Positions 4,874 through 59,482 of a stretch of DNA of 64,000 nucleotides are shown in pieces. Position 1 is the stretch's first letter. The number at the start of each line of letters is the position of its first letter. This DNA is from Candidatus Rokuibacteriota bacterium. Its GTDB lineage: Bacteria; Methylomirabilota; Methylomirabilia; Rokubacteriales; CSP1-6. Location: NCBI GenBank assembly GCA_003220435.1, contig QHSL01000092.1, positions 1 to 64,000 of the forward strand. The letters run 5' to 3'. The notes below the pieces were generated by a model. That model saw only the letters and a program-made list of their open reading frames with translations, was not told where the DNA came from and did not search any database. A program made the translations under genes and the position numbers.

Positions 4874-6256
4874 TCAGCTCACCGGCATTCTGCCCTGCAG
4901 GAGAAGGCGGTAGCGATGCTCCATGTGGGCCGCGTCCTCCTCGATGGTCTTCACCGCCGGCAGCTGGCAGCGCAGGGACCCCAGCAGGCCCGGATCGTGG
5001 AGGACTCGCAGAAGCTGACGCCGCAGGTCGGCCGAATCGCCGAGCCGGAAGTGAAGCCCGGTCTTACCGTCTTCCACCAGCTCCGCCATCCCGCCCCGGT
5101 CCGAGGTCAGCACCGGGATGCCCGCGAGATAGGCTTCGTGGATCGTGAGCGGCGAGTTCTCGAACCAGATGGACGGCACGATGAGGAGATCGAGCTCGGC
5201 CAACGCCTCGTTGACCTTCGAGTTCTCGAGGCGGCCCATGAAGCGAACGGCTGGCGGCGTGCCGCGTGCGAGAAGGCGATTCTTGTAGTCGGGGAACGTG
5301 TCGAGGTCTCCGTAGATCCGGCACTCGATCCCGGACTCCGGGATCTCGCGAAACGCGTCGAGGATCAGGTGCACGCCCTTGTGTTCCGCGATCGTGCCGA
5401 CGTAACCGACCCGAAGAATCGACGACGGGCCGTGCCGGGTCCTCCGGAGAGGGTCGATGACGAGGCCGTTGTCGGAATACAAGATGCGATCAGGCGGCGC
5501 CAGCCCTTCGTCGACAAAGCGCCGTCGCAGGAATCGCGACGGCGCGAGGAACAGATTCACCTTCTCGAGCTCCTCCCGGATCTCGATCTGCCGCCGGCGC
5601 ACCGCATCGAGGTAGGCGCCGTGATCCCCGTTCGCGCCGAGCCACCGGGCCCTCCGCGAGCCGATCGACGCCCGGAGCTTCGCGGTGATCCCGCGAAGCG
5701 CGAGGGGGAGCCGCCAGGAGGTTGTCGAGCTGGTATCCGAGAACGACGACTCCGCGAACGGGAACGGTGACATGCCCGCCGCGCAGCGTGCACACTCCAC
5801 GGGCTCGGGCCCATCGCAGAGGACCCCACCCGGTCGCAGGAGCAGTCCGCTGTTGAGGCACATGAGCATGTACTCGTGAAGGGTGTAGACGATCGGAAGC
5901 CCTCGTCGTCGAGCGATGTCGATGTATCCGATGCTGTGCAAATAGAGATGCTGCAGGTGGACGAGGTCGGGGGCGCTCTTGTCGAGGATCGTCCGAAACA
6001 GGTCTTCCATCTGCGGGTCGCGGTAGCTCTGCCGGAACGACGCGAAGTAGCGGTTGTGAACCGCCTCGAAGTAGGGGATCCCGAAGAATTCGCCTTCGCT
6101 GAGCTCGTACTGTGGGCGCTCGGGCCGGATCTCGGTGAAGAACAGCTCGACCCGGTGGCCCCGGACCCGCAGTGCCTGGGCGAGGCGGTAGGTGTAGACC
6201 TCGCTCCCGGCGAGGTGCCGCGGCAGGAACTGATGAACGACCATCAGGACCTTCAT
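4874..6256 (-). CDS. Family 4 glycosyltransferase
   Basis: A 460-residue GT-B enzyme starting MKVLMVVHQFLP with LAGSEVYTYRLAQAL as acceptor-side motif. The donor domain has VGYVGTIAEHKGVHLIL and the E-X7-E segment IWFENSPLTIHEAYLAG. The central HEYMLMC motif plus CX7CX2C (C-DGPEPVE-C-AR-C) matches the preceding GT4. Its ATG overlaps the stop of the upstream GT4 by ATGA; the longer open frame upstream is only a shadow of that gene. It is probably a recent relative of both flanking GT4 genes. Sugar specificity is unknown. Confidence 0.91.
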   Translation of the reverse strand: MKVLMVVHQFLPRHLAGSEVYTYRLAQALRVRGHRVELFFTEIRPERPQYELSEGEFFGIPYFEAVHNRYFASFRQSYRDPQMEDLFRTILDKSAPDLVHLQHLYLHSIGYIDIARRRGLPIVYTLHEYMLMCLNSGLLLRPGGVLCDGPEPVECARCAAGMSPFPFAESSFSDTSSTTSWRLPLALRGITAKLRASIGSRRARWLGANGDHGAYLDAVRRRQIEIREELEKVNLFLAPSRFLRRRFVDEGLAPPDRILYSDNGLVIDPLRRTRHGPSSILRVGYVGTIAEHKGVHLILDAFREIPESGIECRIYGDLDTFPDYKNRLLARGTPPAVRFMGRLENSKVNEALAELDLLIVPSIWFENSPLTIHEAYLAGIPVLTSDRGGMAELVEDGKTGLHFRLGDSADLRRQLLRVLHDPGLLGSLRCQLPAVKTIEEDAAHMEHRYRLLLQGRMPVS

Positions 6257-7623
6257 ATCCGACGGTCTCGGAGGTCCCGGTATCGGGCGAGCATCGCCGC
6301 CGCGTGCTCCTCGATCTCGGGGACAGGCGGGATGCCGCGCCTCAGCCGCTCGAGGATCTCGGGGTGCTCGGCCACCTGACGCAGCTTCGCGCGCAGGTCC
6401 GCCGCATCGCCGAGCCGGAAATGCAAGCCGTCGACTCCGTCTCGGACGAGCTCGGCCATCCCACCGGCGTTCGCGGTGATGACCGGAACGCGCGCGACGA
6501 AGGCTTCCTGGATCGTGAGCGGGGAGTTCTCGTACCAGACACTCGGCACGACGACGACGTCGAGCCCCGCCAGGATCTGGCTGATCCGTTCGTTTTCGTA
6601 CGCGCCGTGAAGAACGACGTTCGAGGTCGCTCGGTCTTTGATTCGTCGCCAGAACTTCTCGGAGATCGGACTGCCGAAGACCGAGCCGAAGACGTGCAGG
6701 CTCGCCCCGTTGTCGACCTCTCGAAAGGCCTCGAGAAGCAGCTCCACGCCCTTCTGTGGATGCAGAGCCCCGATGTATCCGAAACAGACACCCGGGTGGT
6801 CGGTCTTGCGGACACTGGAGAAGTGCCGGAACCCGTACCTCAGAAACTCCAGCTTGTGGCGCGGAAACCCGCAGCCCGCATGACGCTGCAGCAGAAACTC
6901 GCTCGGCGCCAGGAAGCGATCGACATCGCGAACGATGCGCCGGGTGTGGGTCAAAAAGAATTCGCGCTTGTGCTCGAGGTTGGCGCGCCGTGGATCGCCC
7001 AGCCATCGGGCCGCCCGATCAGTGGCGACAAGGAGCAGGGCTCGGAGCGCCGGGCGCGGGTGCTGCCGGGCATAGCGCTGCCAGCGGGCGATCGAGGGCA
7101 ACCGTGCGCTCCACGGTGGCGCGGACGCGCGACCGCGCGACCGGATCAGGACAGGACAGCAATCCTGAAAGAAGTCGGGGTGCTGCTTGCCGCACAGGAC
7201 CCCATCGTCGCGCAGCAGCAAGGCGTTGGGGCAGATCAGACCGTAGTCGTGAAGTGTGTAGACGACCACCGCGCCACTCACACGGGCCAGGGGGACGAGA
7301 TCGTCGCCCAGGCTCAGGAAATTGTGGAAATGGACGACGTCGGGACGAACGTCGTCGAGGACCGCCCGGAAACTCCGACGAAGGAAATGGTTCGGCCAGT
7401 CGGCCAGCCGGGCGTATTGGGCGCCGTCGATGCAATGATAGGTTGCGAGGCCCCTGATGGTCTCGCGTCGCATTCGTCGCGGCCAGACGCGGGAGACGTT
7501 GGAGATGTGGAAGACCCCCACGTCTTCGGTCCTGGCGAGCGCGCGCGCGAGGTTATCGCAATACACCTCCGACCCCTGGGAGGAGTACGGAGGGAACTGG
7601 TGGATCACCTGGAGGACACGCAC
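6253..7623 (-). CDS. Family 4 glycosyltransferase
   Basis: A 456-residue GT-B enzyme starting at GTG (MRVLQVIHQFPP) with SQGSEVYCDNLARAL. The donor domain shows CFGYIGALHPQKGVELLL and VWYENSPLTIQEAF (E-X7-E). It shares the HDYGLIC motif and a downstream Cys group with the other two tandem GT4 genes, although here the Cys pattern is C-X10-CC. It is the first of the three genes in transcription order and is divergent from the lipoprotein gene, only 51 nt away. Its promoter may therefore lie in that short gap or be read through from the exporter genes. Confidence 0.91.
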   Translation of the reverse strand: MRVLQVIHQFPPYSSQGSEVYCDNLARALARTEDVGVFHISNVSRVWPRRMRRETIRGLATYHCIDGAQYARLADWPNHFLRRSFRAVLDDVRPDVVHFHNFLSLGDDLVPLARVSGAVVVYTLHDYGLICPNALLLRDDGVLCGKQHPDFFQDCCPVLIRSRGRASAPPWSARLPSIARWQRYARQHPRPALRALLLVATDRAARWLGDPRRANLEHKREFFLTHTRRIVRDVDRFLAPSEFLLQRHAGCGFPRHKLEFLRYGFRHFSSVRKTDHPGVCFGYIGALHPQKGVELLLEAFREVDNGASLHVFGSVFGSPISEKFWRRIKDRATSNVVLHGAYENERISQILAGLDVVVVPSVWYENSPLTIQEAFVARVPVITANAGGMAELVRDGVDGLHFRLGDAADLRAKLRQVAEHPEILERLRRGIPPVPEIEEHAAAMLARYRDLRDRRI

Positions 7624-47674: not shown

Positions 47675-48916
47675 ATGCAGGTCATCCGAGTCGGCACACT
47701 GATCGACGGCAGCGGCGCGCCACCCGTTCGCGACGCGAGCGTGCTGATCGACAATGGACGGATCGAGGCGGTCACGACGGCCGACCCGAGCGGCCGCCGG
47801 TCGGCGGGCGCCGAGAGCGGAGCGGATGTGATCGACGCCTCCCGCCTCACCGCGCTGCCCGGGCTCATCGATTGCCACGACCATCTGTCCTTCCACGGCT
47901 ACGAGCTGGCGAAGCGCTGGGGCCTCGACGAGCCGCAGAGCACGTGGCACCTGCGAACCGCCACGATCGCGCGCCAGATCCTCGAGTCGGGCTACACCGC
48001 GGTGCGCGACGCCGGCGGTCTGGACGCCGGCTTCGGGCTCGCGATCCGCGACGGGCTCATCAAGGGACCTCGCCTGGTCGTGTCGCTCGCGATCATCTCG
48101 CCGACCGGCGGCCTCGGCGACCGCGTCAGCCCGTCCGGCCACACGCCGCCGGGCAGCCATGATCCGAGCCTACCGCCGAGCGTCGCTGACGGCGTCGCGG
48201 CGGTGCGCACGACGGTACGGACCATCGTCCGGGCGGGCGCGGACGTGATCAAGTGCGCCACGACCGGCGGCGCCAGCTCGCGCGCCGGCCACGGCCCGCG
48301 GGACCGCGCGTTCACGCTCGAAGAGATGAAGGCGCTCGTCGACGAGGCCCACCTGCTGGGACGCCGCGTCATGTGCCATGCGGTCGGCGGGCCCGGGCTG
48401 CGCGTGGCCATTGAGGCCGGCGTCGATTCGATCGAGCACGGCTGCTACCTCGACGAGGACCGGGAGCTGATCCCGATGATGGCCGAGCGCGGGATCGCCT
48501 TCGTCCCGACCCTGACGGTCTACGAGTACCACCGCGAGTCGCAGGCGCCCCACGTGCGCGAGCGCGCCCGCGCGTTGCGCACCCACCACCTCGAGAGCGT
48601 CGGCCGGGCACTGGCGGCTGGCGTCAACGTCGTCGCCGGGACCGACGCCGGCGGCCACGGCCACCCGAACAACGCCCTCGAGCTCGAGCACCTGGTGGCG
48701 GCGGGCCTGACGCCGATGCAGGCGCTCCAGGCGGCGACGAGCCGGGCCGCGGCGTGCCTCGGGCTCGAACACGAGATCGGCACGATCGAGAAGGGCAAGC
48801 GGGCCGACCTCATCCTGGTCGACGGCGATCCGCTCAAGGACATTCGCTTGCTTCAGGATCCTCGGCGGATCAAGCACGTCGTCAAAGGGGGGGTCACCGT
48901 CATCTCGCGTTCGTAG
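47675..48916 (+). CDS. Amidohydrolase (imidazolonepropionase/prolidase-like)
   Basis: A 413-residue metal-dependent hydrolase. GLIDCHDHLSF holds the HxH metal pair, DVIKCATTGG the bridging Lys, VMCHAVGG and SIEHGCY two His, and VAGTDAGG the Asp. These are the metal ligands of the binuclear amidohydrolase group that includes Sgx9260-type prolidases. AGGAGG precedes the ATG. It follows the permease gene by 15 nt, so it probably acts on the imported compound, such as an N-acyl or dipeptide-like substrate. Confidence 0.91.
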   Translation: MQVIRVGTLIDGSGAPPVRDASVLIDNGRIEAVTTADPSGRRSAGAESGADVIDASRLTALPGLIDCHDHLSFHGYELAKRWGLDEPQSTWHLRTATIARQILESGYTAVRDAGGLDAGFGLAIRDGLIKGPRLVVSLAIISPTGGLGDRVSPSGHTPPGSHDPSLPPSVADGVAAVRTTVRTIVRAGADVIKCATTGGASSRAGHGPRDRAFTLEEMKALVDEAHLLGRRVMCHAVGGPGLRVAIEAGVDSIEHGCYLDEDRELIPMMAERGIAFVPTLTVYEYHRESQAPHVRERARALRTHHLESVGRALAAGVNVVAGTDAGGHGHPNNALELEHLVAAGLTPMQALQAATSRAAACLGLEHEIGTIEKGKRADLILVDGDPLKDIRLLQDPRRIKHVVKGGVTVISRS

Positions 48917-48928
48917 CTCCGTCGCGGG

Positions 48929-49098
48929 AGGCGGAGGAGCGACGTGGCGATGGGCTCCAGGGATCGCGGGACCACGCGGCACGCGTCCGCTATCCCGCGG
49001 CGGCTGGGCTCCATCTGGTCGCGCGTCGTCCGCTGACGCTTGTCGGGAACGGGTCCCGCTGACCCCTCGAGCCCACCGCCACGCCGCCCCTCCGATCC
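48929..49098. repeat. Long-hairpin repeat element, copy 1
   Basis: The arms CGTGGCGATGGGCTC (48943-48957) and GAGCCCACCGCCACG (49069-49083) pair at 14 of 15 positions, and pairing extends outward with few breaks. An inner stem GCGGGACC/GGTCCCGC (48966-48973 with 49052-49059) closes a loop. The core shares about 100 nt, including GGCTGGGCTCCATCTGG, with the copy at 59.4 kb, whose arms are different in sequence. Intergenic, after the amidohydrolase gene. Confidence 0.7.
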
Positions 49099-49174
49099 AC
49101 CGTTGTGGGCTCAGCGACAACTCGCCGCCGCACCGCCTCACGGCCGCGCCTGGGCGACGAGGATCCACTGCGGG

Positions 49175-49567
49175 CTAGACGACGGCGAGGGCTTCGACTT
49201 CGATCATGTAGTCGGGATGCGAGAGCGAGGCGACCTGCACCATCGTCGAGGCCGGGCCCTTGGCGCCGAACACTTCGTCGCGAACGGCCCGGAAGTCGAG
49301 GCGGTAGCGGACGTCGGTGACGTAGGTCGTGATCTTGACGACGTTCGCGAGGGTGCCACCGCCCGCCTCCACGAGCGCCTTGACCGCCGCGAACACCGCG
49401 CGCGCCTGGCCTCGGAAGTCACCCCGGTGCTTGACGGTCCCGTCCATCTCATAGGGCACCTGCCCGGCGAGGAAGAGGATCGTCTGGACGCCCGTCACCT
49501 TGATGGCCTGGCTGTACCCCGGCGGGTCGTAGACGCCGGCCGCGCAGTACTTCTCGATCTTCGCCAT
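49175..49567 (-). CDS. RidA/YjgF family enamine/imine deaminase
   Basis: A 130-residue protein. ILFLAGQVPYEMDG, ARAVFAAVKALVEAGGG, VVKITTYVTDV, and EVEALAVV at the end follow the RidA plan; the catalytic Arg is usually in the segment R-x-x-x-x-x at about 105, here the VFGAKGPASTMVQV stretch lacks it, so activity on simple imines is uncertain. It follows the DAO-type oxidase gene on the same strand, which would release imines. GAGGAGA precedes the ATG. Confidence 0.9.
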   Translation of the reverse strand: MAKIEKYCAAGVYDPPGYSQAIKVTGVQTILFLAGQVPYEMDGTVKHRGDFRGQARAVFAAVKALVEAGGGTLANVVKITTYVTDVRYRLDFRAVRDEVFGAKGPASTMVQVASLSHPDYMIEVEALAVV

Positions 49568-57661: not shown

Positions 57662-59296
57662 ATGCGCGCGTTCATCGGGGTCATCGGTCTCTACCTCGTC
57701 GTCGCGCTCGCGCTGCCGCTCGGACTCATGCTCGGCAAGAGCCTCCAGGGCTCGAAGGACGAGTTCGTCGGACTCGCGAACTACGTCCGGTACTTCTCGA
57801 CGCCCGCTCTATTCCAATCGATCGGCAACAGCCTGTGGGTCTCGATCCTCAGCACCGCGATCACGGTGCCGTCGGCGTTCGCCTACGCCTACGCGCTCAC
57901 CCGCACCCGCATGCCGCTCCGCGGGCTCTTCAAGACCATCGCGCTGGTTCCGATCCTGGTGCCGTCGCTCCTGCCCGGCCTCGCGCTCGTCTACCTCTTC
58001 GGTAACCAGGGACTGATCAAGGGGCTCCTGCTCGGGCACAGCATCTACGGACCGATCGGCATCGTGATGGCGGAGGTCTTCACGACCTTCCCGCACGCCC
58101 TGCTGATCATCCTGGCGGCGCTGGCGCTCGCCGACGCGCGGCTCTACGAGGCGGCGGTGGCGCTCCGCGCGTCACCGGCCCGCATCTTCTGGACCGTCAC
58201 ACTGCCGGGGGCGCGCTACGGCCTCATCAGCGCGACCTTCGTGGTGTTCACGACGGTCATCACCGACTTCGGCGCGCCGAAGGTGATCGGCGGCCAGTAC
58301 AACGTGCTGGCCACCGACGTCTACAAGCAGGTGATCGGGCAGCAGAACTTCCAAATGGGCGCGGTCGTCAGCGTCATCTTGCTCATGCCGGCGATCTTCG
58401 CCTTCCTGGTCGATCGCGCGGTCCGCCGCCGGCAAGTAGCGCTGCTGTCGGCGCGGGCGGTGGTGTACGAGCCCACGCCGAAGCGCGTCCTCGACCTCGC
58501 GATGCTCGCCTATTGCACCCTGATCGGCATGGCCATCCTCAGCATCGTCGCGGTCTCGCAGTTCGCCGCCCTGGTGAAGTTCTTCCCCTACAACCTCACG
58601 CTGACCTGGGCGCACTACGACTTCGACACGAAGGGCGGCGGCGGCTGGGCGTCCTATTACAACTCGATCCGGCTGGCGTTCCTCACCGCCATGGTCGGCA
58701 CGGTCATCGTGTTCGTGGGCGCGTACCTGGTCGAGAAGACCCGCGGCTTCGCGCTGGGCCGCGCGCTGTTCCACTTCCTGGCGATGCTCCCGATGGCGGT
58801 GCCGGGCCTGGTGCTCGGGCTCGCCTACATCTTCTTCTTCAACGCGCCGGCGAACCCGCTCAACGTGCTCTACCGCACGATGACGATCCTGGTCGTCAAC
58901 ACCGTCGTCCACTTCTACACGGTCGGCCACCTCACCGCGCTCACCGCGCTCCGCCAGATGGACCCGGAGTTCGAGACGGTGTCGGCGTCGCTCAAGCAGC
59001 CCTTCTACCGGACCTTCTGGCGCGTGACGGTGCCGGTGTGCCTACCGTCCACGCTCGACATCGCGATCTACATGTTCGTCAACGCGATGACGACCGTCTC
59101 GGGTGTCGTCTTCATCTACGGTCCCAGGACCGAGCTGGCCTCGATCTCCGTGCTCAACATGGACGACACCGGCGAGATCGCCTCGGCCGCCGCGATGGCG
59201 ATGATGATCTTCTACACCAACACCGCGGCTCGCGGCCTCCACCTCCTGCTCGCTCGCTGGCTCGAGCACCGGACCCAAGCTTGGCGCCGCCGATGA
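57662..59296 (+). CDS. 2-aminoethylphosphonate-type importer permease, two fused domains
   Basis: A 544-residue membrane protein with about twelve helices in two homologous halves, the FbpB/PhnU plan. EAA loops are YEAAVALRASPARIFWTVTL (first half) and FETVSASLKQPFYRTFWRVTV (two blocks, second half). It forms the whole channel for the binding protein and ATPase encoded just upstream. The ATG has no strong ribosome site; the frame is open from the end of the ATPase gene. Confidence 0.93.
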   Translation: MRAFIGVIGLYLVVALALPLGLMLGKSLQGSKDEFVGLANYVRYFSTPALFQSIGNSLWVSILSTAITVPSAFAYAYALTRTRMPLRGLFKTIALVPILVPSLLPGLALVYLFGNQGLIKGLLLGHSIYGPIGIVMAEVFTTFPHALLIILAALALADARLYEAAVALRASPARIFWTVTLPGARYGLISATFVVFTTVITDFGAPKVIGGQYNVLATDVYKQVIGQQNFQMGAVVSVILLMPAIFAFLVDRAVRRRQVALLSARAVVYEPTPKRVLDLAMLAYCTLIGMAILSIVAVSQFAALVKFFPYNLTLTWAHYDFDTKGGGGWASYYNSIRLAFLTAMVGTVIVFVGAYLVEKTRGFALGRALFHFLAMLPMAVPGLVLGLAYIFFFNAPANPLNVLYRTMTILVVNTVVHFYTVGHLTALTALRQMDPEFETVSASLKQPFYRTFWRVTVPVCLPSTLDIAIYMFVNAMTTVSGVVFIYGPRTELASISVLNMDDTGEIASAAAMAMMIFYTNTAARGLHLLLARWLEHRTQAWRRR

Positions 59297-59319
59297 ACTT
59301 CACATTCTCCGCGACGTGC

Positions 59320-59482
59320 CGGCGGCGGCGGCGGGCGTGTGCGGGAGGGGTCGCGGCTACCACGCGGCACGCGTGCGCTGCTCCGCGGCGGCTGGGCTCC
59401 ATCTGGGCGCGCGTCGGCCCGCCGCCGGTTGGAGGGAACGGGTCCCGTCGACCCCTCCCGCACACGCCCACCACCGCCGCCT
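59320..59482. repeat. Long-hairpin repeat element, copy 2
   Basis: Two 21-nt arms (59333-59353 and 59449-59469, beginning GGGCGTGTGC and ending GCACACGCCC) pair perfectly. Outward GGCGGCGG/CCGCCGCC segments add about ten more pairs. The 95-nt loop matches copy 1 at 49.0 kb (TACCACGCGGCACGCGT, GGCTGGGCTCCATCTGG, GGGAACGGGTCCCG). The arms themselves are unlike those of copy 1. It stands after the permease gene. Confidence 0.72.

Follow-up and report, generated by a model that had tools for sequence, protein, structure and literature searches.

Two long hairpins in a 64,000-nucleotide stretch of a Candidatus Rokuibacteriota bacterium (contig QHSL01000092.1, positions 1 to 64,000; hereafter the window) raise the question of what keeps the arms of a stem complementary when the arms of different copies have nothing in common. 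A sequence-only reading had described a two-copy element, near 49.0 and 59.4 kb, with a shared core and unrelated outer arms that pair within each copy. It attributed this combination to selection for structure, and listed a miniature mobile element among the possible identities. Our analysis supports the last option: both hairpins are long-standing copies of a short parasitic DNA element that lies at gene ends. They very probably belong to a family of IS630-derived miniature mobile elements (MITEs) that insert into CTAG, in which the pairing of the arms is largely renewed at the DNA level and the core is under constraint. The features concerned are as follows.

47675..48916, plus strand: amidohydrolase gene before copy 1 (Pfam PF01979), with its stop TAG at 48914-48916
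48914..49178 (approximate), plus strand: copy 1, whole element, from the amidohydrolase TAG stop as far as the CTAG in which the convergent RidA-type gene has its stop codon
48917..48958, plus strand: copy 1 left arm, which pairs with the right arm (stem score 58)
48959..49068, plus strand: copy 1 conserved core (covariance model match 48945-49082, E 5.7e-19)
49069..49112, plus strand: copy 1 right arm, which pairs with the left arm
49175..49178, no strand: CTAG at the right end of copy 1, the presumed target tetranucleotide, read in the sequence and from the CTAG profile of the family
49175..49567, minus strand: convergent gene after copy 1, Endoribonuclease L-PSP (RidA-type; Pfam PF01042)
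57662..59296, plus strand: ABC-type transport permease gene before copy 2 (Pfam PF00528), with its stop TGA at 59294-59296
59321..59353, plus strand: copy 2 left arm, the perfect inner part, with weaker pairing from near 59297
59346..59457, plus strand: copy 2 conserved core (covariance model match 59332-59471, E 2.7e-17)
59449..59481, plus strand: copy 2 right arm, inverted-repeat partner of 59321-59353

Much of the initial description was borne out. Both copies lie where they had been placed, share a core (82-85% identity) and have outer arms that are unrelated in sequence; both also follow plus-strand genes, encoding the amidohydrolase and the ABC-transporter permease, respectively. Each copy pairs with itself. 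The arms of copy 2, recovered by a repeat search of the window, are 33 nt long and 94% complementary, and the fold of this copy is much more stable than expected from shuffled sequence (z -5.6). In copy 1 the self-pairing includes mismatches, and shuffled sequence folds about as well (z -0.9). The extent proposed for copy 1, 48929-49098, was too short, as the element reaches roughly from 48914 to 49178; its exact ends are indistinct because the terminal inverted repeats have decayed, and neither window copy has recognisable IS630 terminal inverted repeats. No Rfam covariance model reached its gathering score in the 64-kb window, and a relaxed threshold (up to E 5) at five loci returned nothing relevant. 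Neither intrinsic terminators nor a sigma-70 promoter pattern were detected at the two window copies.

The element is not restricted to two copies, since about 30 exist in this genome. BLAST found at least 31 strong core matches in the 5.4-Mb genome of this Candidatus Rokubacteria (G000), and a covariance model built from 116 copies found at least 30. Searching relatives with the same model, as the sequence-only reading had proposed, revealed further copies in which pairing is kept: at least 11-51 per congener, at least 57 in G064, which belongs to another genus, and core copies in at least 29 of the 57 genomes of the family. The matches listed for the searched genomes from other families of the phylum included no copies, and the named contigs with the core pattern are nearly all from Candidatus Rokubacteria. 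One contig labelled Actinobacteria bacterium AC_69 (L146; VAYX01000025.1) carries the element, with its core near 6171-6280 and flanks 83-87% identical to a G000 locus; it is probably a Rokubacteria contig in the wrong genome bin. Some copies are clustered. Three lie in direct orientation about 182 nt apart in G007 (C60 59876, 60060 and 60241), and G000 has pairs in opposite orientation ~230-240 nt apart (C42 33293/33534, C69 114100/114329 and C92 101/336), which recall REP pairs. A literature search found no Rokubacteria MITE; the elements constitute an abundant and apparently previously undescribed repeat family of an uncultivated soil lineage.

The ends of the element can be read in better preserved copies, found in the related genomes G001 and G007. 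These copies are about 240-263 nt long, have no transposase gene and consist of long arms around the ~110-nt core, with terminal inverted repeats of ~30 bp that begin at CTAG and read CTAG(T/C)GT(C/T)CCGTC...GAAGTCATGTTAA. A pattern search for this terminal repeat gave matches in 16 of the 57 family genomes, G000 not being among them, and the reversed control pattern gave none in the 57. Many of the matches face each other in pairs at a distance of about 257-263 nt, and the pairs that were read fully have the core inside. The same ends delimit a 1,145-bp insertion sequence of the IS630 family (L206; G057:C11 23450-24594), which has an intact 352-amino-acid transposase frame (NF033545, E 1.4e-73; DDE_3, E 3.5e-20); the MITE ends match both of its ends over 27 nt or more. 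The family, in its preserved copies, combines properties of IS630-derived MITEs, namely shared terminal repeats, a CTAG target, a short length, the lack of a transposase gene and many copies. Genes beside lone terminal-repeat matches (MacB/FtsX, mandelate racemase-like and glycosyltransferase genes) were considered as transposases and rejected as host genes. Transposases at least 90% alike to the matching IS630 enzyme were found only in G057 and in G018 (G018:C246). Neither of these genomes has core copies, so the copy-rich genomes appear to be without their partner. We also observed two short elements (L161 1502-1590 and L232 147-240) that have both terminal repeats and no core. The core may thus be dispensable for movement, although such elements could also arise by later deletion of the core.

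Insertion at CTAG is seen at one site in G001 (L162), where the element lies between two CTAGs and relatives have an uninterrupted CTAG stop codon. At this filled site, ~210 bp just downstream in G003 and G006 are absent from G001, and the duplicated unit can be read as either TA or CTAG. (A second candidate empty site, L014/L125, failed to align as one.) The sequence-only reading had suggested a search for duplicated targets; CTAG stands on both sides of preserved copies, and the terminal repeats are unrecognisable in the window copies. In the surroundings of 154 copies, CTAG clusters at 20-79 nt from the core, on the left as on the right, and is less frequent further out. Furthermore, CTAG stop codons are found in 45 of 122 genes near an element compared with 66 of 655 others (p = 3e-12). 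This enrichment explains the position of the element's start, which falls at the stop of the gene before it (median distance 1.5 nt), with 74 of 108 copies following a sense-strand gene. Since CTAG is rare and often contains a TAG stop, copies would come to lie directly after genes.

Comparisons of orthologous loci show the element to be present in some congeners and absent from others. The stops of the gene pair that flanks copy 1 are 258 nt apart in G000, while the same amidohydrolase/RidA-type pair has a gap of 15, 27, 39 and 28 nt in G003, G001, G008 and G004, respectively. Copy 1 is thus absent from the locus in these four congeners and, by parsimony, was gained in the lineage of G000, although the search for a close source copy found none, the best core being 87% identical. 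Copy 2 is common to G003 and G002, truncated in G005 and inverted in G007; in G001, G004, G006 and G008 the corresponding gene is not followed by a copy. Local alignment of outer flanks with permissive settings was uninformative except in a few strong cases. At one pair of loci (L057/L062), from two closely related genomes, the flanks are mostly 97% or more identical and the CTAG stop codon is the same, but the cores are only 84% identical and the arms quite different, as would be seen after replacement of the element or a second insertion at the site.

The arms are well paired within copies and poorly conserved between them. Among 145 copies the median arm-stem score is 68, compared with 22 when arms are swapped between copies, and a copy has a median of 37 Watson-Crick pairs; the left arms of different copies are 44% identical. 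A test for covariation, which the sequence-only reading had also called for, gave a clear result: with a fixed structure and 116 copies, 26 pairs of the closing helix (P1) changed on both sides, and the score for the whole structure was 0.314, compared with 0.103 in shuffles (0/500 as high) and at most 0.09 in slid versions. Across 34 orthologous pairs, which are not all independent because some loci contribute several, 104 double Watson-Crick changes were observed where about 22 would be expected if the sides were independent, along with 153 single changes where about 311 would be expected.

The kind of change is informative about its cause, since under selection on RNA a G.U pair is tolerated and an A.C pair is not. 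With symmetric scoring, the mismatches in the arms comprise 248 G.T and 243 A.C, and the single changes in the 34 orthologous pairs comprise 31 G.T and 28 A.C. The double changes are mostly transversions (64, compared with 40 transitions). In addition, about five independent orthologous loci have the core in inverted orientation, so that its direction relative to the host gene is inconsistent. In the cleanest case (L088/L128) the flanks are in order (83% and 80% identical), and the core is 89% identical when flipped, compared with 49% unflipped. Template switching between inverted repeats has been reported to homogenise arms, to invert spacers and, in bacteria, to favour transversions (PMC8604942), and it has also been put forward as a source of RNA hairpins and of their maintenance (PMC8794818). 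Mismatches that are balanced overall, double transversions and inverted cores together fit template switching better than selection on RNA, and the inference of selection for structure from different arms with kept pairing is not upheld as an argument for RNA. One locus (L136 1455-1587) has two left core halves head to head, a palindrome that either a fold-back template switch or an assembly artefact would be expected to leave.

We therefore favour an IS630-derived MITE whose history, as we reconstruct it from these sequences, would have run as follows. An IS630 transposase would have moved the element in trans into CTAG. After insertion the arms would act as a unit, a change in one being copied to the other. 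The likeliest mechanism is template switching by a polymerase within the hairpin, and the same process would occasionally flip the core. Pairing would thus be renewed largely at the DNA level, with no requirement for RNA selection, and the core would change at a rate near that of coding sequence, presumably under purifying selection. Several observations count against this explanation: the window copies are without recognisable terminal repeats, no close source was found for copy 1, and the genomes in which a close relative of the matching transposase was found have no core copies. The wobble balance also varies along the arm, with 92 A.C and 39 G.T in the inner 24 bp and the reverse bias further out. 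We do not read this as a strand signal because copies share ancestry, but it is not fully explained. A mild orientation bias is a further point against; relative to neighbouring genes, 108 copies include 48 (+,+) and 26 (-,-), a difference that may be inflated by the orthologs included.

The conserved core calls for a separate account, as the decay of a dead MITE alone does not explain it. At orthologous loci the core is 84.3% identical, compared with 72.5% at third codon positions, and is the higher of the two in 36 of 38 pairs; the arms are 69% identical, and neighbouring intergenic DNA, for which the alignment itself is uncertain, 58%. Homogenisation of cores within a genome was not found and fails to explain this conservation, because cores of G000 are no more alike (0.784) than non-orthologous cores from other genomes of the genus (0.793). 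The core is presumably kept in place by purifying selection, and it may have acquired a function. We regard it as possible, though well short of an even chance, that it has been domesticated, such that the scattered copies share a cellular role, with a single factor reading their RNA or DNA structure, and the arms serve as a renewable clamp that presents the core.

A somewhat more doubtful alternative is selection for a DNA hairpin or cruciform, in which a protein would recognise the folded or extruded core, treating both strands equally and favouring paired arms. The strand symmetry of the mismatches, the long arms of most copies, the conservation of the core and the tolerance of inversion would all be in keeping with this proposal. 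However, template switching alone yields both double transversions and inverted cores, so that the arms need not be under selection, and copies with one arm missing exist, though part of these may be assembly breaks.

We consider it unlikely that the element is a functional structured RNA, either a cis element at mRNA 3′ ends or a small RNA, with a core domain closed by the variable P1 helix; selection for the folded transcript would then maintain the pairing, and scattering by a transposon would be history only. The strong covariation, the conservation of the core in place above third codon positions and the start of the element at the stop of the sense-strand gene in most copies would agree with this, as would the excess of G.T over A.C at two internal pairs (columns 53-80 and 54-79). 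Against it stand the balance of G.T and A.C in the arms, the prevalence of transversions among double changes, cores whose direction relative to a given gene is reversed between related species, the lack of an Rfam match, and inner hairpins of the core that can be drawn but hardly covary.

That each insertion created its arms afresh, by inverted duplication of the flank and with no co-change, would suit the differences between nearly all copies and the missing source of copy 1. This is very improbable and largely contradicted: arms are common to preserved copies from a single lineage (L162-L164, L157), and where orthologous copies occupy the same locus, a difference in one arm is matched in the other, so that arms change after insertion.

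Among known elements, RUP of Streptococcus pneumoniae is linked to IS630. Like RUP and other IS630-derived MITEs, the Rokubacteria element is short, transposase-less and multi-copy, with IS630-shared ends and CTAG/TA insertion; unlike RUP, it is limited to one family, has a ~110-nt core conserved in place, and has arms that differ between copies yet match within a copy. Integron attC sites were considered and set aside; they have conserved ends around a variable middle, opposite to the arrangement here. ERIC elements of enterobacteria are likewise intergenic palindromes with tens to hundreds of copies, and copies at gene 3′ ends affect transcripts (PMC10969869). By description, the Rokubacteria arms are longer and far more variable between copies, and an insertion-sequence partner is identified. 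Correia elements of Neisseria are MITEs with inverted-repeat ends and more than 100 copies, for which element inversion has been reported (PMC10969869), but they lie mainly upstream of genes and carry promoters, whereas the Rokubacteria copies lie mainly after genes and the two in the window have no sigma-70 pattern. REP elements are extragenic palindromes, mostly downstream of genes and sometimes in inverted pairs (PMC3733652), and share these properties with the Rokubacteria copies. However, REP units measure 20-40 bp, carry GTAG or CGTC tags and are linked to tyrosine transposases, and the present unit is about 250 nt, with CTAG and IS630 repeat ends and an IS630 (DDE) transposase.

A repeat family of a soil lineage has thus been traced to a specific IS630 element, which raises the question of why the core of a transposon is conserved in place. 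The family is also a cautionary case, as its covariation would pass by the usual standards for an RNA family, yet DNA template switching is indicated. With dozens of loci that have orthologs, it provides a dense natural data set for measuring template switching.
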